Assembly: GCA_949317995.1 (NCBI GenBank)
Contig: OX439042.1
Location: 19,819,174 to 19,883,173, forward strand
DNA: 64,000 bases
Direction: 5' to 3'
Source of the DNA: Acholoe squamosa
Taxonomy: Eukaryota > Annelida > Polychaeta > Phyllodocida > Polynoidae
Part shown: positions 5,640 through 56,368 of the stretch, in pieces
How the letters are laid out: every line of letters begins with the position of its first letter
Numbering within the stretch: position 1 is the stretch's first letter
Notes under the pieces: generated by a model
Told to the model about the DNA's origin: nothing
Databases searched by the model: none
The model's input: the letters and a program-made list of their open reading frames with translations, nothing else
Position numbers and translations under genes: made by a program

Positions 5640-8600
5640 GGAGAGCGGGAGGGAAGGACAGGGACAGAACAAGAAAGAATGAGTGAGTAATAGATGTTTA
5701 ACGCCATTTTGACAGCTAGGGTCATATTCATGGCGAGAACTACAATACACAATTTAACAGAGAAATGTGGCAGTGCCCGCGCATATGTGCACCACACACA
5801 TCCTGAGGGGATAGGAAAGAGGAGATATAGACCCTTTTAAGTGGGCTAGGGAAGCCCGAGAAAGAATGAGAAGGTGGGCAACCACTGATCCATGTAAAAG
5901 ACAAACAAACTAGTATACGTAGTGTATATCCTAGGTCCACGTGGGATATGGCAACAACACCCCAGCTGTCATCTCACATAGGATGTCTTTGTGAATTAGC
6001 TCTATACTACACTCAATTATCTTTGAACAATGGTGTAATATGTATCAAAATATATTTCTGCTTTGTACATCACAATTCGGAGCCTGTTTGCACTTCATCA
6101 TTTCGAATAAATTCATGGCATATGTGTCAAGGCAAACAATTCACAATACATGTATCATGTGTCGATATTCATTTAAAAGGTGTGTCGCATGGCGCTGATG
6201 TAACACAGGTAACACATTTTTCAGTAGTACCTTTCTCTGTTTTTCCACTCGCTTATCTGGGGTTTGATTTCCCGATCTGTTATAATCTGGTGTGGTCCGT
6301 TCCCATTGCCAAATTGTCGCCCTCTACATAATCTTATCCTTGCAGGTTGTAATTTCACCATCTTATTGAATTAACTTCCTGTATAAACTCGAGAACAAAA
6401 GATTTCCCCAAATTACCCCACTGGCAGTTGCTCTCACCTTAGTGCCCACACCTACTTTCTCCACCCTGATACAAACATCATATAGGAGCCCCTATACCTA
6501 AACCTAAAACATCAGCACCATTATAGAATATCACTTAGACAATTAGGAGTGTGTACTCTTGTCTCACCTGGGCACAAATTGGATCATTAGTGTATGTAAA
6601 GGATGGGGTGTTACCTGTAAGACCTAACACCTTTACTTGTACCTTTACCTGCACACACAGGTAGTCGACTGCCTCTATGGAGTCCCCCACTTTGTGTGGA
6701 TCCACAAAGACCGACGCCGCCCCATTTCACGTAACACCAGCCTTATTTACTCTACTCCCTAATTAACCCTACCACAGAATCTGCATAATTATTCTACATC
6801 TAACGAACTTTGCATTCTTCTCTGTCCTTAGGGCTATGAATAATACGATCAATTTGGTAGTGTCCCTTTGCGCAAACCTGCATTTGGAAGTCCTTTAGAT
6901 CTTTATGAAGGCAAGCATATGCTGCTATTAGAAATTTTGGGTTATTTTGTCATTGCTATATCTCGCTAAAGACTGGTACCTACAACATCATGAGTTTTGA
7001 TTAAATAGCCAAGCTACTGTGCTTTGTTTACATTGTTTTATAATCTTTGAAGAGATATAGATCGAGATTTTTGTATTCGGAATTAAACTTCAATATATAT
7101 ACTGTTTTGAAATGGAGATAAGCTTGTTATTTGGGCTGCACAAGTCAGTCAAAGAACTAAGTCATCAAAAGGAGTAGAAACGTCCTATTATATTGTCATC
7201 TATGATTACTTGACGATTACCTTTATCCTTGCGGTCTAAGTGCCCTTATTCTGGTGAGAACTGGGTGGGGATAGGGGCGGAACAACTGGAGGATGGGGAA
7301 GGGATAGCAGTTGAATATGTACTGGTCAGTAAGGGCGTGGTGACACTGGGGTAGGGCGTGGCCGTCACCCTACCTTAAAAACTGCACACATAGAAAGACA
7401 TAGGGCCATAGCCTGTGATTAGGGATCTGATTGTGTCATCATAAGTAGCTGAGTCAATTAGTCACTTCCTTAATTGAAAGGTGTGAAGACAGTTCGCTGA
7501 CTCAAATCTGTAGCAAACGATCGGTTGAAAGAATCACCCAAAAGACCTAGCATACCAAGGTCCCCCCCCCCCTTTTTAAATATTTCTGAGGAAAGAAAGA
7601 AGTTTTAGGAAGTGTATATTTCAATCATTTTCGATGAGATATTTCACTTTGATACGTGAATAAGAATAAGGAGGGTGCAATATCATATATGCTGGTACGT
7701 ATACTTGCCTCAATATGTAGGCACCACTATCTTGTCCTGTCTCTATGTTTCGGTAATGTAATACGATTAGAACCTTGCCTTAGGGAAAGAAACAAAAGAA
7801 TAAATGAAATGAGAGACAAGCACTAAAAAGTGACGCAGAAGGATACTGCTCTCCTATCTCTAACAAGAAAATTCGGTCAGCAATTTAACCTTTCGCCTAG
7901 GTTGTGAAAAATCCTCTCCATATCGTCAGTCAGTGTCAGCTAATCTTCTCTGTAGCAGCATTCCTAGAGGTTTCCGGCTTGTCCTCTGACACTGTGTCAC
8001 GTTCTCCCTGTGTCCTAGATGTATAGACGTGCTCACTGACATAGGATCAAGCCACACTATATGCAATCAAATCATTATTTTATTCCATTTTACTTTCATT
8101 TTTATCGTGTGTTGTTTTCTTTCCATTTTTTACTCAAATAACTATACCCATAGGTACATAAAATTGGTGATTTATTTTCTTCGACTTTTAGGTCACATGA
8201 CAACTGACGTGCTGTGAGCTGCTCATCTGCCCTCAGGTTCACTGGTTGTCATGACAACGCCGCCATATGACCCAGGGGGTGCGGTGACCACTGGTCACCA
8301 AGGTAGTCATGGTGACATGTTTTTGGCACATCACACTGGAGGAGGGTTTGCAGGGGAAGGGGGGGGGCATCATAAACATACAGCCCTCTTTTCAATTTAA
8401 CCTGGAAAGGATGATACCAAGAGAGATTGACCAGATATCTACTTTTACAACACGTCAAGAATCCAAAGCTAATTTGAAAAATCTCCTATATTATGTGAAA
8501 TACTTCTGATATCCACATGAACAGCTCAGAGGAAGTTGACATGTATATCTGTGGTCTGCTTCCTTCAGTGGCTAATTAGAAGCCTTGGTGGTGAAACTTG

Positions 8601-28026: not shown

Positions 28027-29105
28027 TTAGCCCCTGGTTCAGTACCACCTGTTGAGAAGTTGATCACGTAACTGCTGTTTGTCTTGTGAAGATTTTGTCT
28101 GAGAGACAGCAGGGTAGTGGACACCTGAACATCCATCAAAAGAGACGCTGTAGCTGCGTCCACTTCAACAGCACAGCATGTCCTCTGCCGAGACGCTGCA
28201 GAATTAACTGCCTCATTAGAAGCATATCAAATAATGTGAAGTGGTCTGCACTGAGGAGGAAGGATGGGATTTACGACTCTGTCCGACTGCTGCCGAATAT
28301 TTCCGAATGATTGCGTCCTGACTGGATCCAGACAAGATTACAAAAAGAGGGATAAAAAAGGGGACCGTTAGGACTAGCCTAGTGGACGAGATTACGAGTA
28401 AAAGTTACGTTTTAAGCTGCCTGAAGGCCCCTGCCTTGTGGAGTGTGCAGCGAAATAATCTCTATTTGACGATTGTTACCACTTGACCTTCAAATAGTCA
28501 ACCCACCATACTTCCGTTATGTATTCAAGAGACACTTTAGATTGCAAATAACTAACTAAGATAAGATTAATGAAAGCAAGTGCCCCTTTCTACTTTTAAA
28601 ACAACATTACACCTTACTTGGAATAGATCTTGAGTGAAGTCATTGGAGATATAAGAGAGTTTGCGGCAACAGATGCTGCTAAATCTCTTACTGAATTTGT
28701 TTCTCAATCTTACATTCAAAGCCACCTTATGACAAATCCATAGCAATAAACTGTTATGGGGTTAAAATATACTTACAAGTATTAGCTATGATAGGTTTAG
28801 CTTAAGCTTATATCTTGTGTGACTATTCTTACAGAAAAAAATGATATACAGCATATTTAAGCTATCCCTCGAAACAAGACACGGGAAAATCCCGTGAACG
28901 ACTGGTGAATCTGTGAGCATATATTCTCGGGAAGATCCTGGGAATAGTACCTACAATCCCGTGAATTACCCTGATATTCCCCAGTTTTTAACAGGGCCCT
29001 CTAGTGAGATTTATACACATAAGTCTGATTCTTCAGCATAAAGTGAAGATGCCAGAGTCCACCAGGGGCCTCTGTGTGAGCATGGAATCCTGGTTTGGTC
29101 CAAAG
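28027..29105. other. No gene supported
   Basis: A 74-codon open frame at 28086-28310 has no recognised motif. At about 28875-28985 three CCCGTGAA-type words resemble the CACGTGAATT cluster at 41647-41792. Confidence 0.4.
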
Positions 29106-29341
29106 AACAGAGAGAGGGAGTGAGATGGAAAGAAATGAGAGGGCAAGAGAGGAACAGAGAGAGCAAGAGAGATAGATATAAAGAGAGAAAGAGAGAGAGA
29201 GAGAGAGATGGAGAGGGAAAGGAGAGAAAGAGAGAAAGGGAGAGGGAAACGGGAGAAAGAGAGGAAGGCAATAGAGGGAGGGAAGAGAGAGAAAGAGAGC
29301 AAAATAGAAAGAGAGCGAGGCAGAAAAAAAAGAGGGAGAGC
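29106..29341. repeat. Purine-rich (GA/GAAA) tract
   Basis: About 235 bp with almost only A and G on the plus strand, built from AGAGAG and GAAAGAGA words. The apparent open frames in it (Arg/Glu-rich on plus, Ser/Leu-rich on minus) are by-products of the repeat. Confidence 0.9.
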
Positions 29342-29443
29342 CTTGCCCCCCCAATAAAAAAGGAAAATTGATTGACTTAAGCTACTGACAAAATTGATAC
29401 ATAAAGTTGATTGAATCATAATATTATGTGTCCCATTCTAATA

Positions 29444-29564
29444 TGTGTGTGGTGCACATATGCATGGGCACTGACACATTCATCTGTGAAGATGTGTAAT
29501 GTAGTTCTCACCATGAATATCACCTCAGTTGTCGAAATGGCGTTAAACATTTATTACTCACTCT
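29444..29564 (-). repeat. SINE-like repeat, family A, copy 2 (partial)
   Basis: Minus-strand partial copy. It reads from TGTGGTGCACATATGC through CTCACCATGAATAT to GGCGTTAAACATTTATTA on the plus strand, and so lacks the GGGCTAGGGAAGCCC tail. Confidence 0.65.
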
Positions 29565-29655
29565 CCCGTCTAATAATTATGATTGATATCTCACTAAATG
29601 TGCATATTGATATCTCACTAAATGTGCATGTTTGCTAGACATGTCTTGAACAGAG

Positions 29656-29877
29656 TTAAACCCTTTAAGGGCTAACCCTAATGCATTAATGCATTTTGGT
29701 TGTCATGATGCATTAATGCAGGCAGGGCTTCATTCAAGCATCATGCTTACGCTTTGGGAAGATCAGCATGATGCCCCAATAAAGTGCTGGCAAGCAGACT
29801 CCCCAAGTCTTCATCGGTAAAACATGCCAGCCAATGGGCATGTTACACTACTGCATCAGCAGACCTTAAAGAGTTAG
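29656..29877. mobile_element. piggyBac-like MITE, copy 2 (eroded)
   Basis: The copy starts TTAAACCCTTTAAGGGC, with AATGCATTAATGCA following. The right end, ACCTTAAAGAGTTAGG, is a decayed inverse of the left. It shares AATGCATTAATGCAT and the CCAATGGGCATG module with copy 3 at 37076-37773. Confidence 0.5.
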
Positions 29878-31369
29878 GTAGCATTTAGAGGCCTGGCAAA
29901 TAGGCACTCAATGATTATAGGGCATGCTAAGTTGTTTACGGGCACTAAGTAAAGAGTCAGCTAAATTTAGACTGTCAAGGTTGTAGGGTGCAGGCAAACC
30001 ACCTGTGGTACACGCTTACAGAACAGGTCATTTTAGTCAGATGGGGAGGGGGATTTCTGGGGCATAAATGGGTGAATGTAAAAGCATCATTTAACACAGT
30101 CTGTACTGTCTACTTAACCGTGTAAAAGCACCCAAAATCTCACTGTGCCTTATTCACTGTACTAAATAAATACTCAGACATTTTGTTTGGTCTTTACCCC
30201 TGGTCCATATCGAAGACAGGTACTTATGAAATTTTAGTGCTGAAGAGTTATTTTAACACCTCCCCACTAACCACTGGTACTTATATGAGACCAGCAATCA
30301 TTGCTGAGTGTCAAGAATTAATCTTCTCAAAAATGAGCATCAAGATACTCACATGGAAAACTTTTCTGACTCTCTTTTGTGTCATTTTTGGGGGAAAATA
30401 TTTGGGGAAATCTCAAATTTACACCAGACTTCCTTCATATGGGATGCATGCCATAGTTCCATCCATTAAAAATACACTGTAACAGGTTTATGCCTAGGTC
30501 CATCACACCTCATGTATAGACTCACTATGAACTATGTGATATTTAATGGACTATTAACACATAAATACCATGTTATGACATGTGTCCGTCGAGAACATAT
30601 TTGAGTATGATTTGAAAAATGAACGTGACATATCAGATGGAAATAGAACCACCCCTGTGCCCCCTCACCCCCTGCTGATACCTACTGAGCACTCCCAAAC
30701 ACCAACAGGACCAACCAGTTTGGGCTACACTGCCCCACCTCAGCTGTCATTTCCACCTGGCTCACCTACACACAAGACCTGTCTCCAAAAACTGAGGGTA
30801 ACAGTGGGTAAGCATAAATTTGCCATTTTTCACCATTTTCTATTCATTATGACATGCAAAGGTCACCATTTTCTTGCTGCTCTATTCATAAGGGCACTTA
30901 CAATCCTAAATAGGAAATGGCACTAGTATCTCAATATTACCAATGGCATTGTACCTTGATGTGTGCAATATTCATGAATGCTAATTCAAGCACTTTACCA
31001 GCATTTGCAGTGATCCATAAAAGAAATCCTAAGTACTTGACTGGATATTTATTTGCAATAATATGTGATATTGTACATCTGAAGGCATGATTGCAAACCC
31101 ATACATGTACTTGTGTGGCCACTGGCTGTGTTCAGAAATAGCCCTCCTTATTGCAGCTGCATACTACTACTATACAACTAAGTGTGAGAGGCAGTCAGAC
31201 CCTTTCCCAATCCAGGTCATAGTGGGCCCACCTTGTGTACTGATTACCTTACCTCTTATACAGTGTACCCATTCCCAGCCAGCCTAATTTGGGTAACTCA
31301 CACAAGCACCTAGCAGAAGGTGACTTTACTTGTATGCAGGGTTGTTGTAGATTGCAACACTCATGGTCA
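29878..31369. other. No gene supported
   Basis: Open frames up to 114 codons (30582-30926) show no motif that I recognise. No bounded repeats were seen. Confidence 0.4.
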
Positions 31370-31555
31370 GATTCCCCTTCTGTCCCAGTATATTTACATG
31401 TCTGTATATGTGTCCACACTCACATCCATCTATGTACATACATTCCCTTTTATCCACATACACTCACATGCCTCATATCCACATGCACCCCCTCACACAT
31501 CCACATCCTCTCTATGTCCACATCCCCTCTAAGTGCACACATACCTCCCTCTATC
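31370..31555 (+). repeat. Degenerate outlier of the 22-bp minisatellite
   Basis: Loose repeats of TGTCCACACTCACATCC and CCACATCCTCTCTATG show the same building blocks as the array at 31936-36118 but with more divergence and spacing changes. Confidence 0.6.
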
Positions 31556-31935
31556 AGGCTTCCCTAGCCCACTTAAAAGGGTCTATTTCTCCTCTTTCCT
31601 ATCCCCTTTGGATGTGTGTGGTTGATTGATTGATTGATTGGTTTGTGTTTTACAGCACTTTAGCGGCACTAAGTGGCTATCCCGTGCTTCACAGGTTGAT
31701 AATTTATGAGAGGAATGTGTCAGTGCCCGCGCATATGTGCACCACACACATCCTGAGGGGATAGGAAAGAGGAGATATAGACCCTTTTAAGTGGGCTAGG
31801 GAAGCCCGGGGATGTGTGTGGTGCACATATGCGCGGGCACTGACACATTCCCCTGTGAAATTGTGTAATGTAGTTCTCGCCATGAATATGACCTTAGCTG
31901 TCGAAATGGCGTTAAACATCTATTACTCACTCACT
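31556..31935. repeat. Composite of family A repeats in both orientations
   Basis: A minus-strand tail fragment (31556-31620) is followed by (GATT)n and a head-like block. Then comes a plus-strand fragment (about 31716-31808) ending in GGGCTAGGGAAGCCCG and a minus-strand copy (31810-31935) ending at the (ACTC)n edge of the minisatellite. The two tails can pair with each other, as can GTGCCCGCGCATATGTGC with its inverse. This suggests repeated insertion or template switching at one site. Confidence 0.6.
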
Positions 31936-32159
31936 CACCTCCCTCTATATACACACCCACCTCCCTCTGTGTCCACACCCACCTCCCTCTATGTCCACAC
32001 CCCCCTCTCTCTGTGTCCACACTTAACTCCCTATATGTCCACACCCATCTACCTCTGTGTCCACACACACCTCCCTCTGTGTCCACACCCACCGCTCTCT
32101 ATGTCAACACCCAGTTCCCTCTGTGGTCACACTCACTTCCCTCTGCGTTTACACCCACC
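31936..32159 (+). repeat. 22-bp minisatellite, left block
   Basis: About ten copies of a 22-bp unit close to CCCACCTCCCTCTGTGTCCA plus two bases. The block ends abruptly at the TA where the foldback element begins, and the same array resumes at 35142. Confidence 0.9.
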
Positions 32160-32394
32160 TACAGTGGCCCACAAGGGTCAAATTGAAGTTGAAGTAAAGA
32201 ATTGACTTTCACAAAAAAGGTTAGAGTCCAAAACCAATATTAATGTTCAAAGTCAATTTCATTTCATTGCTGTCAAACTGTCAAGGTGTCAACTCATGAA
32301 AACCAACTTGTGACAGGTATCTTTTAGCATTGCATGGTGCACTCTATGTCTTTCTATATGAACAAAGCTTATACCAGCAACTACTGGGTAGCTA

Positions 32395-32825
32395 TCGGTT
32401 CCCTCACACCATAACTGATGGTTCCACACCAAGTAGTTGGTGGTTCCAGCATCCTGTAACTGGTGGTTCCCACCCACTGTAACTGCGGTTCCACACCTAT
32501 CCGCTACTGGCACTGGATCCCATACCAAATAGCTGCTGGTTCCCACACCCAGCACTTGGTGGTTCCCATGCACATTAGTTGCTGTTTCCTGTACCCAGTA
32601 CAATGCTGGTTCCCACATCCAGTAGCTGCTGGTTCCCATATAAAATGATTCCTAACCCAAGTAGCTGCTGGATCCCACACCCTTGCTGGTTCTTGCACCC
32701 AGTACCTGCTCGCTTCCACATAGAGTAGCTGGTAGTGGTTCCCACATCCATTAGGTGCTGGTTCCTGCACCCACTTCCTGCTGGTTCCCAAATAGTGCCT
32801 GCTGGTTCCTACATCAGGTAATTGC
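32395..32825 (+). repeat. Foldback left-arm subarray, GGTTCCCAC/CAGTAGCTGCTG units
   Basis: Roughly fifteen degenerate copies of a unit of about 25-30 bp. The mirror array on the right arm lies at about 34360-34925 as GGAACCAGCAGCTACTGG. Confidence 0.85.
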
Positions 32826-32849
32826 GAGTTCTTAAAAGAGTAGCTGTCA

Positions 32850-34330
32850 AAATAAGTCAATTGGGTCAGGATAGGTCAAATTAGGTCAAATATGTTGAAA
32901 ATAGGTCATATTGGTCAAAAGTATGTCTATTCGGGTAGCATAGGTCAAATTATGTCAAACATGGTGAAAATAGGCCAAATTAGTCAAAAGCAGGTCAATT
33001 AGGGTAGGATAGGACAAATTAGAGTAAATATGGTGAAAATAGGTCAAATTGGTCAAAAGTAGGTCAAAGAGGTCAGGATAGGTGAAATTAAGTCAAATAG
33101 GGTGAAATTAGGTCTAATTGATAAAAAGTAGGTCAATAAGGGTACCATAGGTCAAATATGCTAAAAAATATGTCAAATTGGTGAAAAGCAGGTCAAATAG
33201 GGTAGGATAGGACAAATTAGAGTAAATATGGTGAAATTAGGTCAAATTGGTCAAAAAAAGATAAATAATGTCAGGATAGTTCAAATTAAGTCAAATTGGG
33301 TGAAAATAGGTCTAATTGGTAAAAAGTAGGTCAATAAGGGTACGTTAGGTCAAATTAGGTCAAATATGGTGAAAACCAGTCAAATTGGTCAGAAATAGGT
33401 TGATAAGGTCAAAGTAAATCAAATTAGGTCAAACATGGTGAAAATAGGTCGAGTTGGTCAGAAGTAGGTCAATTAGGTCAGGATGGGTCACTTAAGGTGA
33501 TATATAGTGAAAACAGGTCATATTGATCAAAAGTAGGTCAATTAGGTCCAATAAGGTCAGGATAGATCAAATATGGTTGAAATAGATCAAATTTGTCAAA
33601 AGTAGGTCAACTTTGTCAAAATGTAGGGTATGATAGGTGAAGTAAGGTCAAATATGCTGGAAATAGGTAAAAGTAGGTCATTTAGGTTAAATTATGTCAA
33701 AATTTGTCAAAATAAGGTCGACTATGACTATTTTTGACCAATCTGACCTACTTTGACTATATTTGACCTAATATGACCCATTCTAACCTACTTTGACCTA
33801 ATCATGCTACTTTTGACTGATTTGACCTATTTTAAGATATTTGACCTAATTTGAACTATCCTTACCTAATTGACCTTCTTTTGAACAATTTTCCTATTTT
33901 CACCATTATTTGACCTAATTTGACCTATCTTAGCCTGATTTGACCTACTGACCTACCTTTGACCAATTTGACCTACTTTTACCATATTTGACCTGATTTA
34001 ACCTCCTTGACACACCTTTAACCAAATTGACTTATTTTCGCCATATTTGACCTACCTTAGCCTACTTTGACCAACTGGACCTAATTTTGACCAATGTGAT
34101 CTATTCTTACCACCATTGACCTAATTTGATAGAATTTGACCTGATTGACCCATTTTCAACCAATTTGACATAATTTATCCTAGTGTGACCTAATTTCATT
34201 CAATTTTACCTACTTGGAACCAATTTGACCTATTTTGACAATTTTTAACTATGTTGACTGCTTATAACCTTGTTTCACGCAACTTTCCCAATTTGCCCAT
34301 TTTTGACTTATATGACCTTTTTCATCCAGA
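32850..34330. repeat. AGGTCA/TGACCT tandem array spanning the foldback centre
   Basis: On the left arm (32850-33720), AGGTCA and close variants occur every 10-16 bases. On the right arm (33725-34330) the same words occur as TGACCT. Exact paired words include 33347-33362 (spacer 4, AATT) and 33466-33480 (spacer 3, ATT). Confidence 0.85.
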
Positions 34331-35141
34331 ATTTATCCAGATCACTCTTTTGCTACTAGGTATGGGAACCGGTAGCTACTCTATATCGGAACCAGCAGCT
34401 ACTGGATATGGGAACAAGTAGCTACTGTATGGGAACCAACAGCTACTGTTTTCAGAACTAGCAGCTACCTGATGTTGGAACCAGCAGGCACTCTATTTGG
34501 GAACCAGCAGGTAGTGAGTGCAGGAACCAGCACCTAATGGATGTGGGAACCACTACCAGTTACTCTATGTGAAAGCCAGCAGGTATTGGGTACAAGAACC
34601 AGCAAGGGTGTGGGATCCAGCAACTACTTGGGTTAGGAACCAGTTTATATGGGAACCAGCAGCTACCTGATGTGGGAAGCAGTAGCTACTGTATGTGGGA
34701 ACCAGCATGTACTGGGTACAGGAAACAGCAACTAATGTGTATGGGACTACCAAGTGCTGGGTGTGGGAACCAGCAGCTACTTGGTATGGGATCCAGTATC
34801 AGTAGCTGATTGGTGTGGAAACACCAGTTACAGTGGGTGGGAACCACCAGTTATGGGGTGCTGGAACCAGCAGCTACTTGGTATGGAACCATCAGTTATT
34901 GTGTGAGGGAACCAATAGCTACCCATTAGTTGCTGGTATAGACATATAGAAAGACATAGAGTGTACCATGCAAAGCCAAAAGATACCTGTTACAAGTGGG
35001 TTTGCATTCATGAGTTGACACCTTGACAGCTTGACAGCAATGAAATGAAATTGACTTTGAACATTGATTTTGCTTTTGGACTTTTTTTGTGAAAGTCAAC
35101 TCTTTGCTTCAACTTCAATTTGACCTTTGTGGGCCACTGTA

Positions 35142-36118
35142 CCCACCTCCTTCTGTGTCCACACCCACCTCCCTCTATGTCCACACCAATTTTCCTCTGT
35201 GTCTACACCCACCTCCCTCTGTATCCACACCCATCTCCCTCTGTGTCCACACCTGCCCTCCCTCTTTCTTCCTACCCATCCCCACTATGTCCACACCCAA
35301 AGCTCTCTGTGTCCACACCCACCTCCTTCTGTGTCCACTCTCATGTCCCTCTATGTTCACACCCACCTCCCTCTATGTTCACACCCACCTCCCTCTATGT
35401 CCACACCCACCTCCTTCTATGTCCACACCCACTTACCTCTTTGTCCACACCCACTTACCTTTTTGTCCACACCCACTCACCTCTATGTCCACACCCACCT
35501 CCCTCCATTTCCACACCCACCTCCCTCTGTGTCCACACCACCTCACTCTTTCTCCACTCTCACCTCCCTCTATGCCCAACCTCACATCCCTCTGTGTTCA
35601 CACTCACATCCCTTTGTGTCCACTCTCATCTCCCTCTATGTCTACATCCATTTGCCTCTTTGTCCACACCCACCTCCCTCTGTGTCCACATCCACCTTCC
35701 TCTATGTCAGCACCCACCTCACTCTGTGTTCACACCCACCTCCCCTATGTCCACGGCCACCTCCCTCATTATCCACACCCACCTCCCTCTATGTCAACAC
35801 TCAATTCCCTCTTTGTTCACACCCACCTCCCTCTGTGTTTACACCCACCTCCCTCTGGGTCCACACCCACCTCCCTCTATGTCCACACCCGCCCTCCCTT
35901 TGGGTCTACCCAAATCCCTCTATGTCCACATCCAAATCCCTCTCTATCCACACCCACCTCCCTCCGTGTCCACACCCACCTCCCTCTATCTTCCAACACA
36001 TCCCCATTATGTCCACAACCACCTCCCTCAGTGTCCACACCCACCTCCCCCTGTGTCCACTCTCACCTCCCTCTATGTCCACACCCAGCTCCCTCTATGT
36101 CCACACCTACCTCCTTCT
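35142..36118 (+). repeat. 22-bp minisatellite, right block
   Basis: About 44 copies of the CCACACCCACCTCCCTCTATG-type unit. Because 22 is not a multiple of 3 and the unit has no stop, all three plus frames stay open for over 330 codons. They read the same 22-residue period in shifted phase (LPLCPHPPPS, SMSTPTSLYV). I consider this an artefact of the repeat, not a gene. Confidence 0.9.
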
Positions 36119-37075
36119 GTTTGGTTTGGCATAACCTAGTGAGTAATGGATATACCATTTGTCTTTATAGGTGCATGAAGTTGGACCAATGAAGACCTGG
36201 AGGCAACATCCTACTAAGTGGTTCAAGAGGACAACACGTTCTACTCCATATGATTTTTTCAAAATTTTCAAAGGTTCTCTAAAATTGTTATTTGACATGT
36301 ATGCACATATTTGCCAATGATTTTTTCTGATATCCCAAGCAGGAAATGAACATTTCTAACACCCACCAGTGAAAACCCAGCAAAGAATAATTGCTTTTCA
36401 GTGACCATGATCACTGAATGGTTGATAGTATGGAGAAACAATGAATTTCTACAACATGCTTGGCAAAGTCCTAGATTTCTTTTTTGGTTTTTGTGGCCCA
36501 TAGCCTTTAACCATTACAGCTATGTAATAATGCTATCCGTAGTATCAAGCACATCTAACAAGCTGTGAACAGGTCAGCTTGACTCGTACACCTGGCCTCC
36601 AGAACTGGTCATGTGACCATAGCACTGAGACACACACAGAGGACCTGCCCTCCCCCCACTTGGCCCTTCATAGGATGTGTTACAGTTACTGATTGTTATT
36701 ATTTATGGGTCTTTTTAGGCAAACAAACCAATGCATTAAGTTGACCTTTGGGTAAGATGACTAGGATGCACTTACCTGAAAACTATACACACATTGCAAT
36801 TAGATCTTAATCTCTTGTTGTACATGTTAAATCATGTAATTTACATACCAATCATAGGAGCATTCCATATAGTCATCTAACAATATCCTATCTAATATAT
36901 TCTAATATATTGAGGAGCTTCTACTCATGGTGTAGTCACCTAACCATGTGTTGCCAATGTCTGCCTGCAGCTAACCACCCTGTGACATCACAGAGGCCTA
37001 ACTGTAACACACCCGAATGGTCACGACTTTGACAGCTCTCATACCCCCTCCTCCACATAGGGCCGCACACACCTC
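36119..37075. other. No gene seen
   Basis: Spacer. Nothing beyond chance-length open frames. Confidence 0.5.
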
Positions 37076-37773
37076 TTAACCCTTCAAGGGCCTCTAATGC
37101 ATTAATGCATCATGTCCATTGGACATCATGATGCACCAATGTATGAAGTGCATATTAGGAGTACAAAGTGACATGTCATTGGTTAATTGGAGTCTTAGAA
37201 TGGAAAACAAGCAAGTCATTCCCATATTAGGAGCCCAGTCACATAGTATTGTTATATTTGGAGCAGTTACTGCTACAAATACACATGTTGCAGACTGGTA
37301 ATACCTACACAGCCGTTGTTCTGTTTACTGGTGTCTATTTTTACACATCCCAGGTCACTTCAGGTACATACAGAGTGATTGGTGGTTTTGGGTTTTAGGT
37401 ATTTAACACAAAGCGATCCTGGATAGTCATTGGTAGGTGTCACACACTGCTATTTTACAGGCTGGGTTTATATGTATACATGTTTATTTTAGTAATTGTT
37501 AATGTGGGTTAGAGTTTTAGCACAAGGTGATCCTGGACAGTCAGCAGTACCGGGGTAGGCATCGCACACTGCTATGTACAGGCTGGTTCTATATTTTAGT
37601 GGTTGGTAAGGTGGGATTATTAGAGTCTGCATGCTCTCCAACACTTAATTGGAGCATTATGCCGACCCTTTTGCAGTGTGTGTATCAACTCATATGGTCG
37701 TCATGATGCATGAATGTAGCATCATGATGACCGATGGGCATGATGCATTAATGCATTAGTGGTCCTTCAAGGG
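37076..37773. mobile_element. piggyBac-like element, copy 3 (long inverted repeats)
   Basis: TTAA at 37076-37079 precedes CCCTTCAAGGGCC. The right end ...GGTCCTTCAAGGG mirrors it, and similarity extends about 55 bp through TAATGCATTAATGCATCATG. TTAA is not preserved on the right (ATGTAA). Inside, a module with TGATCCTGGA and CACACTGCTAT is duplicated (about 37412-37470 and 37525-37590). There is no transposase frame. Confidence 0.6.
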
Positions 37774-39475
37774 ATGTAATGGTTGGTGAGTTGGGATGTA
37801 GTGGTTCAGGTTGGTGAGTTGATGCATTTGATGCATGGCCATCAAAAATTATATGATGCCAAACTATAGTCCATCCCTGATTACTTGTCACTTGTACATA
37901 TAATAACTGCAACCTATAGTCCAAACTTAACACATGTAAACAGATTCTTTTCACTTGGACTATGGGCAGAAGGAGGGGTCAGCTAGTGCTGGAGGAATGG
38001 ATAGGCTTGTAGCTTACTGCCGGTGGGGGACCCATTCATATTTTTGAGATACAGAACCTTTAATATTATATAGGATTATGCAGTAATTTGTCACATTATT
38101 CCCCATATTCATATCCAAAAGTTGACAGATTTTTTCATAACTTCCTGAGCACTTAGATTATAAACATATCTTTGTAATGAATGAAGTATCAACATATAGT
38201 CCAAGTGGTAACACATTTGACTCTATATCAAGAGATCTTGGGTTCTATTTTATGCCAGGGAATGTAAGAACATCTGTGAGCCAGCAAGCAGAAATGAGGG
38301 TTCCTGCAGGATTTAGTACCTGTTTTAGCCACCAGGGGGCACTACTATGGGCTAGAATAGGAAAAATATGCCTAAAACTGCTATAGGCTACTTTTTTATG
38401 GACAATCCAATGATTTTTTTATAAAACATTCTATTTTGGGGGGAAAGGGTCCATATTTGGCATTAAAAAGAATGTTTTTGGGCCAAAATAGGCATTTTTG
38501 TTGATTTCTGTTGCCATAGAAACATTATTTTCATTCTAAATAAGAAAATCGATGATCCCATTTGAAGGAACATTTCATAAGGTCCACTATGGTGTAAACA
38601 GAATGAAAATACCATTTCTACATTGAAAGTTATGGGCAAAAGAATGAAAATTTATGCTTATTTAGCTAATTAGCATAAATTATGCTAATTACAGATGTAC
38701 CTCATGACCAATGGGACTTATGGCTTATTGACATTCACAAAATGGTCATACCTACCCATATTTAGCAAGTCATTCCTCCAAAATCTTCTCATGCAATATA
38801 TCACTGTAAAGCTAGTGATCTGAATTTTAAAGTTGACTTCTAGCATGGAGCACCCTTTCTCCTTGCCTCTACACATCTATACAAATATTTTCGGAACATT
38901 TCGATTTTCTTTTTTTTAATTTGGCTACCATAAAACGTTTTTTAATGTTTGTCAACATTTTTTCATCATCCAATTGATGTTTCTGGGACAAACCCCCTAT
39001 CTATCAAACGGTTTTTACTAACCCTGTTATTAAGCTATACTATCATAGAATGTGTTTGTCTGAAATATAGACAGATTGCAACCCCTCTCTTCCCTCTCCT
39101 GCAAAACTTGAAATATGCAGATACAACCTTGTTGCACTGAGGCAACGACATATGGATGAAAATCAATATGAAAAGCAAATGCTGTCATTCACTGTTAGTA
39201 TCAATGACACACAAAAACAATCTATTATCCAATAATTTGTAATACACTAATGAGGTTTATTATATAGAAGTCATTCTACCCAATTTACAAATTGATATTC
39301 ATGTAGTAGATTAATTTGTTATCATTCCATAATAAAACTGATTTAAACTAAAACTTTACTAAAAATATTATTTAGATGACTTGTTTTAAGATAAGTGGAA
39401 TTTTTATCAGTGGTCTCATGCATTGGTCATTTGAATTTGTGTAGAAAAGTAATTTTTGTTTAATTTAAATTTATT
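37774..39475. other. No gene; SINE remnant inside
   Basis: Apart from the tRNA-like segment at 38194-38260, the region is AT-rich with no supported gene. Confidence 0.45.
38194..38260 (+). repeat. tRNA-derived SINE head
   Basis: TAGTCCAAGTGGTAACACA fits an A box and D arm. AAGAGATCTTGGGTTCTATT fits the anticodon 3' side and B box, but the B box is damaged relative to GGTTCRANNCC. The following 120 bp may be the SINE body. Confidence 0.45.
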
Positions 39476-39480
39476 TTGAA

Positions 39481-39555
39481 TACTTTGCAAATTTTGAGGG
39501 GCCCAGATAAACTTCCTTTATAATTGAGGCTGGTGCCCCTTTTCCTATGCCCCTG
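39481..39555. repeat. Fragment related to the hAT-like MITE at 26488-26820
   Basis: Shares GAGGGGCCCAGA, CCTTTATAATTGAGG and CCCCTTTTCCTATGCCCC with the right half of the 26.5-kb copy, in the same order. Confidence 0.5.
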
Positions 39556-39943
39556 ATTCATGTTCCACTTGAAATAACTACTACCCACACATTCACTTTA
39601 ACTCACGGGCATGTAATTTTGTTTTCTTTATGCAGGTAGTCAATTGCAACACAGGAGCTTGATGAAATCTGCTAGATAGCACATATTAAGAGAGGTACTC
39701 CAGAGAAGAGGGCTGGCTGAAAAACAGCACAGTGGTGCCACCCATATGATATTTTTATTGCTGTCATAGATTTTCTGTCAGAAATAAGATACATTAAGTA
39801 TGGCTATTTAGGGAAACCAAACTTTGAGAGGCTTGCATTGTTGATTCCTGGATTCATCATGCCTTTTTTGGTAGATTTGAATAAAAAGATTCAGACATGC
39901 AGTCTTGAATTCTAAACAAAAGAAAATGTAGTTACAATGCCCT

Positions 39944-40245
39944 GTCTATAAGGTGCACCCCACATTTAAGGCACACCCAGACCTTTCTAATATGATAAAA
40001 GGATATGTAAATGTTGTATATTTTATTCTAATCAATGGATCTTCAAAATTCAAGAACCAATAGCCATCCCAGTGCTTCCTTCACCCACCTTTACCACTGA
40101 ATGTGGATGGGGGAATATTGCAGAGACTTTGGGGGAAAATTTACTCCCAGAGAGAAAATGTACTCCCAGTTTTGCTGCATCTAGAAGATGCACCAAAGGG
40201 CAATTCTTGCATATAAGACATGCCATATACATGGTGTATTACAGT
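39944..40245. mobile_element. Decayed relative of the TATAAGGCGC element
   Basis: TCTATAAGGTGCACCCCAC and TTAAGGCACACCCAGACC at the left, and AGATGCACC...GCATATAAGACATGCC at the right, form a weak inverted pair. CAGACCTTTCTAATAT matches the interior of the intact element at 57158-57449. Confidence 0.4.
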
Positions 40246-40921
40246 ATAATATTGCAAAGGCATTTTATGCTATGTTCCTGCCCCCTGGTGGCCAAGACTA
40301 GAACTTCAAATCCTCTATGTAAAATGTATGGTAGTAATAGCAGTGTAGATGTAAGGGTAAATGGTTTTCCATGTTAAAAATCAATTATCAAATTGAGATC
40401 ACACCTTTCAGTGTTATATTGCATAAGAAAATACTCCTTATAGTTTGAGAGAAATAGCTTGCTAGATATGAACTCATGAGTATTTATAACCATATCCCCA
40501 ATCTCAATATGTTCTAGCTCTATTTGGCCTTGAAATACATCCATTTATTTCATTATAACTTCTGATGTAAGAATGGTATGTTCTTTCTGCCTTCACCATA
40601 CTAAACCATGGAACTTTCCCTCAAATGGGTTCCTTGATTTTCTTTTGCTCCTTTGTGCTCCCTTGTGCTCCCTTGTGGCAAAATTAGGAAATAAATCTAG
40701 CACGGGCTAGGTACCAATCCTGTTTACCTGAGACTATATGTGTGATGAAAAACCTGAATATTTTCATTGCGGTGGAGCTTACTCTATTCAATATGCTGAT
40801 GCTGTCTTTTTTAAGGTAGATGGCTCTAATGCCAATCATGTTCTCTGTGCAGGTTTCTGCACATGTGTACTTCTCTTTGGCTAGTGAACGACTATACAAA
40901 ATCATAGCAGGCCCATGAAGC

Positions 40922-40985
40922 TGAGGTGAACTCTCAACCTTCTGTGTCTACACCAGGCACACTAACTAGTTAGGCCACAAAGCCA
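40922..40985 (-). repeat. tRNA-derived SINE head, minus strand
   Basis: Minus-strand reading gives TTTGTGGCCTAACTAGTTAG as an A-box/D-arm and GAAGGTTGAGAGTTCACCTC as a B-box/T-arm, about 35 bases apart. The layout is tRNA-like, but the stems are imperfect. Confidence 0.45.
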
Positions 40986-41646
40986 GCTGGCTGTGTGGGG
41001 GTTTATGAGCAGTATTTAGCCTGCATGATGTAATTCTATTATTTTCAGGAGATTTTCAATGTGGAAAAACAATTCAAAAGTGCGTGGGACCACATGATGG
41101 TAATATATTTTCTGGGTGCAGAAAGTTGATGAAAATATTCTGGAATGTAAGCCAAAAAATTAGCTACTCTTTAATGAGATTCCATGCAAATTATGGCAAA
41201 ACACTGTATAACCCTATGGTAGATTCATAGATAAATATCTCATAAACTAGCATGGGACCCTGTGCTAGTTTATAAGACTGCTTTCTTTGTACTATTGGAA
41301 AGAGAAAGTAATTACCAACATGGTAAAAATCTGGCGAAAATTTAGCTACTTTTAGCCTATGGGCGCCATCCACCTTCCCCATTTATTGCCCCCATTCTAG
41401 ATGTATTTATTACCCAAATAAAGGCTCAAATCAAAATATAAGTCAATGTGTCTAGTTTTGTGTGAATCTCAATATTGCTCAGAATCTATCAATCAAAATG
41501 ATGGCATATCAAGGCTAGATCTACATCAAAGACAAATACAATGAGGAAATTCTCATCATAGGAATACAAACTATCGATTTCAAATCTTAAATTGAGGTTA
41601 GAAGTGGGGGTTATTTGCAAAAGTATTTTCAATATTCCCGTGATAT

Positions 41647-41792
41647 CACGTGAATTTACTGTCATTTCACGTGATCCCGTGATATCACGTGAATTTCTGC
41701 TCACAGAATCCCGTGAATTCACGTGTAAAATTTACGGGAATTCACGGGAACGACACCAGTTCAACATGTGATTTTACTGGTGAATTCACGTG
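41647..41792. promoter_or_regulatory. Cluster of five CACGTG palindromes
   Basis: CACGTG occurs at 41647, 41668, 41686, 41720 and 41787, mostly within TCACGTGAATT or TATCACGTGA. CCCGTGAA and GGGAATTCACGGGA half-forms lie between. CACGTG is the core of E-box sites for bHLH-zip factors. The cluster may equally be a palindromic repeat, so function is inferred only. Confidence 0.35.
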
Positions 41793-42895
41793 AATTTGTT
41801 TCAAGGGATAACTTATAGTACACATATATTTCCTGATCATACAGTCTATATGCCGACATGTATCTATACTCATTGATGTGACACACGAGACTCATCAGCG
41901 ACCATTCAATCAACTCGGTGGTCACGCTTCTACAGGGTAATCTCCCCGCCCATGTCCCATCCACCAGGGTCATGGCTTATGTCAAGGCACTATATAGATC
42001 ATATAAGTTTTCTAACCCACGTGGCAGCTATTTACTTTAATACTCTAAACTGCTTGTGTCAAGCCACCATAGAGCTGTATAGACTTATTTCTATAGAGAT
42101 TTATTTAGTTTTATTTGATAGAATCATAACATTGTCAGTCTTACTCTATCTTCATATTTTCAAGTAGCACGTGTGAAACTAAAAAAACATCCATTGATAA
42201 ATTGTGCGATAAATCTTGATCGATGGAACGCATCGACGATGTCGTGTCTTTACGTCATGGCATCATATATATCAACACTTACGGCTCAACTTTGTCGGTT
42301 CTGGCCAAAATAAAAGTTATTTATCATTTCATGTCAGATTTATCATAAATTTACCATCACCTAGCCCTACTCACTCCATCTTGTGCCTAACCAGACGTCC
42401 ACACACATGTAGACTGGGGTCCGCCCCTCCCCGCCTTATGGACAGACAGGGGACACGGTCTGATAACCTTAATGGTGCCATCCTTCCATGTCTACAGGTT
42501 TTCATACTTGTCAAGTTACTGAAGGAGCTCCTCAGCTCAGGAGCAGCATGCAAAAGAAGGAGGGGGTGGGTGGGAAGGCCCACTATATGAACCTATATAT
42601 AAAAGTATATTTATGCCTCTTTATATGTATGCCTGAACAGGAAGTATATTAACATATTCGAACTGATATCAACATAGACAAGGACTACCAATATGATTAA
42701 TTTAATTAATGTATCATACATGACGGGGGACTCAAATCTCGTGGAGTAAACGTGCCCATTCTGCCAATTTGCTTCAATCCCAATGTGTATAAATGGTGAA
42801 ACGCATTTGGTGCACTATAAAAAATAACTGTTGAATCTACCAAGGATCCTTGTAAATCTGAAGATGGCAGTACAATGGTACATGTACAAGACCTT

Positions 42896-45025: not shown

Positions 45026-46128
45026 TGTAGAGGTACGTTATGATAAACCATAGTAAGGGGTACCGTCTGGCGTGGCGGGTGAGTCCAGTCGTTGGGTGTT
45101 TCTCAGGTTCTGGATAGGTGGCAGCACTGATCCGGGCCTGTGGGGACATCTGACGACGAACACCTAGGTCCGTATATAAGGGCCGGGACTCAGCCGCTAC
45201 GTCAGAGGCCCTCCTGGCCTCTGATCATGTAATATCTTCATCCATTAGCTGCCCTTGTACCATCTTCCGGGTAGCCGTGAGTGTTTCATGTAATAAATCA
45301 TCCGTTGGCATACACTTGAATTACCGCCTTACTCCTTCTTTCCTGATCAGTAAGGCCCGAACCACCAAATTCGTAAGACTAAACCATTACATTGGTGTCG
45401 TGACCGTGATTAGATAGTATGGTTACATTGAAAGTCTTTCTCAAGACTATATAATCACTATGATAATAATAATTACAAACTCATTAGGATGTTATTATGT
45501 GGTTTAATTCATTACTTAACAGTTCCGTTACACATAACTGTTATTTTTCCACATATTCGAACAATATTGATTATCCTATTTGTTCATCCGTAACTATTAA
45601 TACTATCGGGTATATCAAAATATCTTTCAAATGATACTGTACATGATGTTAATGTTATATCTATGGTTATACCTCTATTATTAGGGTAAAGACATATCGT
45701 AATGTTATCCCTATATAATAACATAATAGTTATAACTCCTTCCTAAATGTCTGGGGGAGTAGTGTAGAGGTACGTTATTATAAACCATAGTAAGGGGTAC
45801 CGTCTGGCGTGGCGGGTGAGTCCAGTCGTTGGGTGTTCCTCAGGTTCCGGATAGGTGGCAGCACCGATCCGGGCCTGTGGGGACATCTGACGACGAACAC
45901 CTAGGTCCGTATATAAGGGCCAGGGCTCAGCCGCTACGTCAGAGGCCCTCCTGGCCTCTGATCATGTAATATCTTCATCCATTAGCTGCCCTTGTACCAT
46001 CTTCCGGGTAGCCGTGAGTGTTTCATGTAATAAATCATCCGTTGGCATACACTTGAATTACCGCTTTACTCCTTCTTTCCTGATCAGTAAGGCCCGAACC
46101 ACCGAATTCGTAAGACTAAACCATTACA
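45026..46128 (+). mobile_element. TRIM-like LTR retroelement, 1.1 kb, complete ends
   Basis: Two LTRs of exactly 366 bp (45026-45391 and 45763-46128) begin TGTAGAGG and end CCATTACA. The 4-bp duplication GCTA lies outside both (45022-45025 and 46129-46132). Directly after the left LTR is TTGGTGTCGTGACCG, a typical tRNA primer site starting TGG. Directly before the right LTR is CTGGGGGAGTAG, a polypurine tract. The interior is only 371 bp, AT-rich and non-coding, so the element depends on proteins from another element. I count about 8 differences between the LTRs, near 2 percent, so the insertion is not very recent. Confidence 0.9.
45173..45180 (+). promoter_or_regulatory. TATA box in left LTR
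   Basis: TATATAAG within the LTR, about 120 bp before the AATAAA at 45292-45297. The right LTR has the same box at about 45910. This is the usual U3/R arrangement. Confidence 0.6.
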
Positions 46129-46216
46129 GCTACAATCATTTATACTTAAACGTCCGCATGTCACAAGCTTAGTGCGCCCTCATGTATAAGGCTTATAATA
46201 AACCACGATATACATG

Positions 46217-46495
46217 TATGAGTGAGTAATGGTTGTTTAACGCCAAGCCGACAGCTAAGGTCATATTCATGGCAGAAAAAGTACATTAGACATCACGTCA
46301 CAAAGGAATACATGTGCCTGTGCCCGTGCATATGGACACCAGACATATGTAAGAAAGAGGGGACAGGAAAGAGGAGATTCAAGGAACGAATATGTGCCAG
46401 TGCCCGCGCATATGGACACCACCCACACTCAGAGAGGATAGAAAAGCAAGACATAGACCCCTTTTAAAGATGGCCTGGGGCTGGGGAGGCCCGGA
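46217..46495 (+). repeat. SINE-like repeat, family A, copy 4 (divergent)
   Basis: Starts GAGTGAGTAATGGTTG and TTTAACGCC, then CATATTCATGGCAGAAAA. It has two GTGCCCGNGCATATGGACAC blocks, so the middle module is duplicated, and ends GGGGCTGGGGAGGCCCGG. Confidence 0.6.
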
Positions 46496-51720: not shown

Positions 51721-51974
51721 ATATTATTACTATTTTTTTCCTTTAACAAAATAGCCATTTCAATAGTTCACTAGTTAGTGACAATTGTGCCCAGAGCCCG
51801 AATATGGTCCTGGAGATGCAGTCCTAAATTTATTCCGATGTGATGCAGATAAGGTCGATACCTGAACAGCGGTCAAGAGGTGACCATCGGTCACCTCTGC
51901 TAATGTCACATTACTAATATGGTTAAGCCTTAATGTTTATTGGTTGTTAGCCACTCTAGTTAGCACCTGAATAT

Positions 51975-52172
51975 GAGTGAATCAGTAATAGATGTTTAAC
52001 GCCATTTTGACAGCTAAGGTCATATTCATGGCGAGAACTATATTACACAAATTCACAGAGGAATATGTCGGTGCCCACGCATATGTGCACCACACACATC
52101 CTGAGGGGATAGGAAAGAGGCCCGGGGAAAGAGGAGAAATAGACCCTTTTAAGTGGGCTAGGGAGGCCCGAG
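51975..52172 (+). repeat. SINE-like repeat, family A, copy 5
   Basis: Begins GAGTGAATCAGTAATAGATG, then TTTAACGCCATTTTGACAGC. It has an inserted GGCCCGGGGAAA near 52117 and ends GGGCTAGGGAGGCCCGAG. Confidence 0.7.
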
Positions 52173-54193: not shown

Positions 54194-54976
54194 GTGTGAT
54201 ATATATCACTTATGGCCCAGGGTCTACTACCCCCCCCCCCCCCCGAATATAAAAATTGGGCCTTGTGCGTTGAAGCACAGAAGGCTCAGGGTAGGTACCA
54301 TAAAACCCTCTATCAAAAACCCTGTAGGGTCACAGGAATCAGCACTTGCGAAATACTGACTAATTACTTACAAATAGAGACTATTATCTATACATGTACT
54401 GACACCAGTCTGGCATAATCTTCTCTTACTAAACCCCTTGGACCGCTGGCCCCCTGGTGTGCTGGCTCCCCGGACACCTGGCCCCTGGACCCTTGACACC
54501 TGGCCCCCTGGAAACCTGGCCCCCTGGACACCTAGCCCCCACAGAAAACTTTATCCTTAGCATGCTTAGTTTATCGCTCAGTCCCCAATGTGTTATGTGT
54601 ATACCTTGGACACTGTAAACATTGCCTGCTGAAAAAAAGTGTCTCATTTGGTGATTACCCATAGGACTCCATGTGCTAATTTCATCGCCAAAATCTATCT
54701 GACCCATAGACCCAATAGTTAAAGAACTTGTAGTCAGTATAGCTCCCAAAAACATGACGTAAGTACAGCAGCTTTTTTCGTAGAGAAAGACATCACTTAC
54801 CATAAAGGACAAAATGTTGTCTGATAGATGAGATTTGAAACTTTCCTTTGGCTTTTGAAAAATGTGTAAACTAACAGTATATCACTGAATGATTACACCC
54901 TAAAGTTGGTGATTACAAATTTGTGGATCTGACTGAAAACCCGGCTCCAATAACCCAGGGGATACCCTGGGCCAAT
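54194..54976. mobile_element. 0.8-kb dispersed repeat, copy 1
   Basis: Starts with the palindrome GTGATATATATCAC and TATGGCCCAGGGTCTAC, and ends GGGGATACCCTGGGCCA, so GGCCCAGGGT is inverted at both ends. Next to the left end is poly-C. An inner CCCCTGG/ACACCTGG minisatellite (about 54440-54540) follows. A long conserved right part includes, on the minus strand, a 90-codon open frame starting MSFMVSDVFLYEKSCC. A second copy is at 62159-62996. The superfamily is unknown. Confidence 0.75.
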
Positions 54977-56368
54977 AATGTTATACTCGTGATGATGTGA
55001 AAATTGCCTCTGACATAGGATATATGTTATCAGAATACAATGGAATAAATACAGGATTCACAGCAAATGACGATTTTATTTCAAAACGAATCTTGCCTTT
55101 TGGAGGTAGCACATGACGCCACCTCGTGAGTAAACTCGAGTTATTAAGTTCAGCCGTCCAGCTGCAGAAGGCAGCACCGCACACCCAGCTTTTCGGTTTA
55201 TGTACAGTTCTTGATAGGAATAAGAGATAAAACTGTTGGGATTGTGTAAATACGTTTTAACATGTTGGCATTAACATCTATCTTATTGAGGTGATCTTTA
55301 CATAGAGATGTATATATGGTAAGTTGAAAATGTGAGCCTTCTGTCTTTTTATAGCTTCTGTACTTCACAAAGAATATCTATCATACTTTTACTTGTTTAT
55401 CTACTCCACCTGTACTGACATCTTGATGGTTACTAAACCTAATAGATACTAGAAAATTCACAACGGTATGGCAGCTCTATTGACGAGGTACTGTGGTTAG
55501 TCCCTTTTCAAATCAAGATCCTCACAGGGCCGTGCAAAAAAAAAAGGGAAAAAAAAATTCCTGTAGTATAGAAATCGAGACCCAGATCTTTTTATTTTTT
55601 AAAATTCAGTTTCCTGTCTCATGACACAGAATAGCCTGAGAAATGTGGATAACCAGTTCAATTAAGGACTGATTCTAGAAGTGTAACTCCAGGGTACAGT
55701 TTTGTAGCAACCTACCACCTTAATCAATCTCCAATTGACATGTGGATTCATTTCTTACCCATTTTTATTTTTTAATTAGGTCTTAAATGCTGAAATTGAT
55801 TCCAGACAAAGTTATATGTGTAGACTGTTTGTATCATCATAATCCCACATTGATAATGAAGTTAATCTAAAGAAATACAGCACCAGTTTTCACTTGGTTA
55901 GTCATTTGATTAATGATACTGCACTTAGAAAATAGGTTGAAACCGTTTCGCAACTCAATATACATGTATCTACATTAAAAACTAAACCTAATCTTTGGCA
56001 GTATCATTATCATTAAACCTCTCAGAACAGTTCCCATTAAAACACAGCTTTTGATAAAATGCAAGTGAAAATATCACACACCTTAAAAAAAATGTCGGTG
56101 AATTTACAGTGCTTATTTACTTTGTCATGTCTGTGTTGCTTCTGTTAGTTAAGATGCTGCCTACAAAAGGGGTTAACAGAATTATACAAAAAATATACAC
56201 AAGTCCAAACCTGTCACACAGTTAAAGAATTATACATCACGATGCCAACAAATACACGTTAATATAACACAGTGTGACGATCCCCACAGGGACAAGAAAC
56301 AAAGACATGCCTTGGCGGGTTGACAATTTGTACATAACAGTTTACTACACAGCACACAGGCGCTCGCT
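54977..56368. other. 3' flank and likely 3' UTR of the minus-strand gene
   Basis: No other gene seen. An AATAAA signal on the minus strand at 55764-55769 would give a 3' UTR of about 600 nt for the gene ending at 56369. Other A-rich signals exist, so the site is not certain. Confidence 0.35.

Follow-up and report, generated by a model that had tools for sequence, protein, structure and literature searches.

A foldback transposon with tandem-array arms and 6-bp target duplications in Acholoe squamosa, nested in a 12.9-kb host transposon

The window, i.e., the whole stretch of 64 kb analyzed from the genome of the annelid Acholoe squamosa, hosts a foldback element with fixed ends (TACAGTGGCCCACAA...TTGTGGGCCACTGTA), which generates 6-bp target duplications and is also found elsewhere in the genome as whole copies carrying both mirrored arrays and being inserted at unrelated sites. 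The insertion in the window took place in the hexamer CCCACC of a 22-bp minisatellite, itself part of a transposon of 12.9 kb. We consider the element to be, with good probability, a non-autonomous cut-and-paste transposon, which would be mobilized in trans by a transposase of the IS3EU/GingerRoot superfamily, with an insertion multiplied by its host transposon and arms derived from tandem expansion.

Architecture of the element and its copies in the genome

The element represents a near-complete inverted repeat, each arm of which starts at the tip with a terminal domain of 200-225 bp, continues with a 23-bp array, and ends towards the centre with an AT-rich 10-bp array (Table 1). The earlier note had described a near-complete foldback with matching ends, a small loop, and arms built from two kinds of mirror-ordered tandem array. 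This architecture was confirmed. The ends are identical, and the plateau of best palindrome centre scores is compatible with a loop of ~14 bp. Word counts, summed over the six segments, are strictly one-sided: GGTTCC appears 13 times in the left and never in the right arm, GGTCA 33 times and never, while the complementary words GGAACC and TGACC are restricted to the right arm with 16 and 25 occurrences, respectively. The 13-base end is located at 32162-32174 (plus strand) and 35127-35139 (minus strand), without a third match in the 64-kb window at up to two mismatches. The outer arms (end and 23-bp array) share ~92-93% identity, gaps excluded: when the outer 700 bp were aligned locally, the best result had 621 identical and 49 mismatched positions, plus 45 gap positions. 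Between the inner 10-bp arrays, the longest ungapped matches are just 70-74% complementary. The single-strand fold of the left 301 bases was better than those of 100 out of 100 shuffles (z -2.71), from which no conclusion is drawn. Comparison of ten open reading frames of the window with Pfam revealed no family, and neither Rfam families nor tRNAs were detected in the window. As a side observation, AGGTCA words within the 10-bp array (32846-34345) are spaced four bases apart, resembling a nuclear-receptor DR4 site, probably by coincidence.

Table 1. Coordinates of the foldback element, its parts, and its surroundings in the window
Feature	Position	Strand	Remarks
Host transposon	28866-41807		12942 bp; TIR CCCTYGAAACAA; AT/AT flanks
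Host 22-bp minisatellite, left of foldback	31932-32159		
Left 6-bp target duplication	32154-32159		CCCACC
Foldback element	32160-35141		2982 bp with the two TA dinucleotides counted; TACAGTGGCCCACAA...TTGTGGGCCACTGTA
Left terminal domain	32160-32384	+	array-free; word GGTCAAATTG near tip
Left 23-bp array	32385-32845	+	GGTTCCCACACCCAGTAGCTGCT-like units
Left 10-bp array	32846-33697	+	AGGTCAAATT-like units, plus 69-bp higher order
Palindrome centre/loop	33698-33712		plateau of best centre scores
Right 10-bp array	33713-34345	-	inverted
Right 23-bp array	34346-34940	-	inverted
Right terminal domain	34941-35141	-	inverted
Right 6-bp target duplication	35142-35147		CCCACC
Host 22-bp minisatellite, right of foldback	35142-36118		

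The foldback is a real repeat family. Searching the species' own assembly (1.48 Gb, 63 contigs) for the exact 13-mer end retrieved 326 + 318 matches, compared with 3 + 4 for the reversed-pattern control. The extended end, comprising TA and a longer motif with one base free, was matched 515 times (266 and 249) and its reversed control not at all, giving a positive answer to the search for further copies with the same ends that the earlier note had suggested. The 129 of 644 13-mer ends outside the extended TA pattern may represent changed ends, chance matches, or other repeats. Inspection by eye of loci that carry an exact 13-mer but diverge from the foldback revealed a short copy of ~600 bp (L002), an apparent remnant of ~85 bp with both ends (L004), a locus whose likeness to the foldback stops after ~133 bp (L003), a match without TA inside a long coding frame (L007), and an end adjoining frames of retroelement look (L008/L085). 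The latter locus, L085 (G000:C1:33704500-33713400), contains frames of 385, 466, 209, and 221 aa and appears by eye as retroelement-like with reverse transcriptase and recombinase. Scans with the extended end yielded 0 matches in each of the sets viral_contigs and genome_contigs and none in plasmids.

Among 100 of the 644 end places that were listed, 30 pairs with a distance of up to 25 kb were counted by eye, one of which (24 kb apart) was left out. The remaining 29 plus-then-minus pairs, together with the window copy, L041, and L042, constitute a set of 32 copies, each bounded on either side by an exact 13-mer. Twenty of the pairs were read over their full length, which ranges from 603 to 4192 bp (TAs excluded); adding L042 and the window copy gave 22 mapped copies. 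In 20 of these, a single switch point separates GGTCA words on its left from TGACC words on its right, no more than two words per copy being misplaced. One side of L010 retains just 4 array words, and L026 and L027 are short copies that have lost their arrays. Among the 20 are the solo copies L012, L022, and L042, which combine mirrored arrays with perfect duplications. The two terminal domains within a copy are 92-96% identical in 17 out of 21 cases and lower in L009, L010, L014, and L023. When the corresponding arm of another nested copy is compared with that of the window, identity is mostly 97-100%. From this difference between arms within a copy and the same arm between nested copies, we infer that the palindrome arose before it was amplified, and the arms would have drifted apart after palindrome formation. 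An assembly artefact, named in the earlier note as a possible origin of the inversion, is ruled out, as judged from the assembly, by the many copies of the same architecture and by solo copies with duplications of their own.

Target duplication and nesting in a host transposon

In the window, CCCACC flanks the element outside the TA on either side, and removal of the element together with one CCCACC restores the rhythm of the 22-bp minisatellite. Nineteen of the 32 copies, the window copy among them, are nested between 22-bp minisatellite units, and 12 are solo copies at unrelated sites. The number of nested copies includes L092, which was classified as one-sided by the script and counted as nested on account of its right flank, an array by eye. 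Similar units flank the other nested copies, mostly of the same variants, with L014, L016, and L102 joining a different unit on one side. The one remaining copy, L017 (G000:C1:121563899-121567824), has host minisatellite at only one of its ends and different DNA at the opposite one, which can be read as a recombinant or a one-ended event.

Perfect 6-bp duplications were found in seven of the 12 solo copies, all with different hexamers (GTTATC, AATGAT, TGCAAG, CCTAAC, GAAAGT, ATATAA, and GCAGAT), and in 0 of 132 mispaired flanks serving as control. Imperfect flanks characterize the other five, with matches at 5 of 6 bases in L018 and at 2-4 of 6 in L009, L010, L026, and L028. Within the nested copies (L092 included) 13 out of 19 show a perfect duplication and six do not, nor does the one-sided L017. 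In the seven perfect solos exact duplication extends to 6 bp at most, and nowhere in the entire set of 32 does it go further. Where the hexamers do not match, the copy may be a chimera of the sort described for Galileo (PMC3573991).

The empty site predicted by a 6-bp duplication was found 17 times exactly in the genome and 54 times with up to two mismatches (control 0), the latter number not being a count of empty hosts, since matches with two mismatches can be ordinary array units (e.g., five in one array of C6). For the TA model, the predicted empty site had 0 genome matches at up to two mismatches. Two empty sites, L108 and L109, align through the junction with the joined flanks of the window, each ~2.9-3.0 kb away from a host left end. 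In the empty sites the TA is lost together with the element, defining TA..TA termini, and 40 of 42 aligned ends read TA, the exceptions being L010_a (TG) and L027_a (TC). The target duplication is 6 bp, and the TA lies inside the terminal repeat; the TA target duplication assumed in the earlier note had to be abandoned. The duplications show insertion at new sites by 6-bp staggered joining.

A separate observation concerns the trinucleotide TAC, which adjoins the outer side of one tip (TACTACAGTGG) in 8 of 64 ends. The respective copies (L009, L014, L015, L016, L019, L026, L028, and L102) are each without a perfect 6-bp duplication. Three of them (L014, L016, and L102) probably share descent, and in L015 and L019 the TAC replaces, by eye, host bases at the nested site with the length unchanged.

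The 12.9-kb host transposon around the window copy was absent from the earlier note. Its termini form a 12-bp TIR in inverted orientation, and a 2-bp duplication of varying letters accompanies 10 of 11 copies. The left end, CCCTCGAAACAAGACACGGGAA, gave 191 exact genome matches (97 and 94; control 0), and the 40 bases preceding it are unrelated by eye in 20 loci and the window. The right end, TTGTTTCAAGGG, is located at 41807 in the window; 21 other copies among 36 scored candidates match up to approximately this position and then stop. Apart from arrays and simple repeats, the longest frame measures 128 aa, so that the host copy in the window seems non-autonomous; longer frames overlap either an AG-rich simple repeat (134 aa) or the 22-bp array (146-374 aa). 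Host copies exist both with and without the foldback, and L041 is 99.6% identical to the window over 7531 bp spanning host and foldback. Foldback ends with an outer hexamer fitting SSYRSS were counted 109 and 113 times, and among 100 listed, 99 read CCCACC/GGTGGG and one CCCACG. According to these counts, the nested type accounts for a large share of the family. The host transposon appears to have amplified the foldback, probably starting from one insertion, and with empty as well as loaded sites present, this nested case clearly documents how one element multiplies another.

Further repeats were noticed in the window. A AGTAATAGATGTTTAACGCC-like short interspersed repeat is present at 5677-5822, 29443-29563, 31810-31936, 46214-46273, and 51973-52120, one copy adjoining position 31932, where the 22-bp minisatellite begins. 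Positions 54235-54981 and 62195-63001 represent a direct duplication of ~0.75 kb in four pieces of 95-97% identity, 8 kb apart, and positions 45026-45325 and 45763-46062 a direct repeat of at least 300 bp (98% identity, 737 bp apart).

Superfamily placement and origin of the arms

According to PMC10045372, TA..TA termini are found in all complete IS3EU families, the duplications of which usually measure 6 bp; GingerRoot elements have 6-bp duplications and mostly TA..TA termini. The foldback resembles both in these two properties, making IS3EU/GingerRoot the probable best fit, a placement for which the termini and the length of the duplication are the only grounds. The TA ends would be cut in trans by an integrase-like DDE transposase of this superfamily. 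The genome was searched for the protein family PF24764, which we take to cover the IS3EU/GingerRoot transposases, resulting in 16 matches. In the three regions that were read (L087-L089), an integrase frame is present and TACAGTGG is missing, with L089 showing one CCACTGTA on one side of the frame only. With regard to the DDE partner envisaged in the earlier note, this search with one protein family delivered no autonomous element with foldback ends in the three regions. The frames of L088 and L089 matching PF24764 (integrase core) measure 304 and 405 aa, foldback ends being absent. A further PF24764 match at C7:17422786 has nearly the score and frame length of L088, and the matches at C1:61.687-61.692 Mb and C4:6.066-6.073 Mb appear to form a pair.

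An assignment to another or an undescribed superfamily with 6-bp duplications, e.g., a Dada-like or a new integrase-like group, seems unlikely, even if it gains some room from the fact that no transposase has been tied to the ends so far. Dada elements generate duplications of 6-7 bp, but they target small RNA genes, and their U6 and U1 families are described as lacking terminal inverted repeats (PMC3706591). Here, the inverted ends are long, the flanks of the solo copies are mutually different, and the window is devoid of Rfam families and tRNAs. We regard it as quite unlikely that the element belongs to the hAT type or to Mutator, the group to which foldbacks are usually assigned (PMC4079207). 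The architecture is indeed similar to Tetris (PMC4079207) and Tm1 (PMC3169594), both of which are placed in or near Mutator there, but their duplications comprise 8-10 bp (mostly 9 in Tm1), compared with an exact maximum of 6 bp here. Extending the reading to 8 bp by inclusion of the TA does not produce a direct repeat, as exemplified by L012 with GTTATCTA versus TAGTTATC, and no target duplication of 8-10 bp was observed. A foldback of the Tc1/mariner type with a TA target duplication, in line with the mariner-like ends claimed in the earlier note, is hardly credible any more: TA is present at both junctions and the CAGT-like tips resemble Tc1, but the empty-site counts (0 for the TA model versus 17 exact and 54 loose matches for the 6-bp model) and the six bases beyond the TA, matching perfectly in seven of 12 solos, refute it. 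TA at both junctions is not proof of a mariner element. Practically no weight is left for a palindromic repeat that is no transposon itself and spread solely via the 12.9-kb host or segmental duplication, since 19 of 32 copies are nested in host-type minisatellite but the 12 solo copies at unrelated sites, seven with their own perfect 6-bp duplication, refute it, and foldback-free sites exist in the same array.

For the preferred IS3EU/GingerRoot-type foldback, a possible origin of the arms is indicated by the word GGTCAAATTG, located near the tip and recurring in the inner array. A shared word of equal length appeared in 18 of 2000 shuffles and in 12 of 1854 random 60-mers of the window, a suggestive significance of ~1%. 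Because the inner array repeats this 10-base word, the arms may have grown via tandem expansion of subterminal DNA. The recurrence of the tip word, together with the relation between terminal domain and array in Tetris (PMC4079207) and the binding sites reported for Galileo arrays (PMC3573991), makes it most likely, at modest confidence, that the inner arrays are multiplied putative transposase binding sites. Going one step further, we tentatively propose that the element could be the first array-armed foldback of the IS3EU/GingerRoot superfamily, its inner arrays being multiplied copies of the transposase's subterminal binding word, convergent with Galileo of the P superfamily, and with a second route of propagation as passenger of the 12.9-kb transposon.

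Comparison with known foldbacks

Near-perfect palindromes with short loops are known from Tc4 and Tc6 of C. elegans, which are of the Tc1/pogo type and have short duplications. A partial literature search for foldbacks in combination with Tc1/mariner or molluscs returned Tm1, Galileo, Tetris, satellite-DNA papers, and reviews. For foldbacks in combination with IS3EU, one equally partial search returned a single paper, a survey of oyster satellite DNA, a table of which places two satellites under DNA/IS3EU (PMC8268682). An IS3EU-type foldback with array-built arms may be a novelty, as a variation on elements of known kinds. If this holds true, a foldback with TA..TA termini and 6-bp duplications would suggest an independent rise of array-built palindromic arms in a further group of integrase-like transposases, with a shared cause behind it, for instance the multiplication of transposase binding sites.

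Tm1 of root-knot nematodes likewise carries arrays of short motifs (~14 bp) in its arms, with a mean arm identity of 93%, but is assigned to Mutator/Foldback by its authors and differs by mostly 9-bp duplications and asymmetric 7-bp terminal motifs (PMC3169594). Galileo of Drosophila shares the long, variable, and internally repetitive arms as well as copies without matching duplications, chimeric in its case, while belonging to the P superfamily with 7-bp duplications (PMC3573991). Tetris of Drosophila virilis is also non-autonomous, with tandem arrays inside the arms and an autonomous copy that was not found; its arrays share a stretch with the terminal domain, as is the case here, whereas its units of 220 bp, its 8-10-bp duplications, and the affiliation to Mutator suggested by the authors set it apart from the Acholoe element (PMC4079207).
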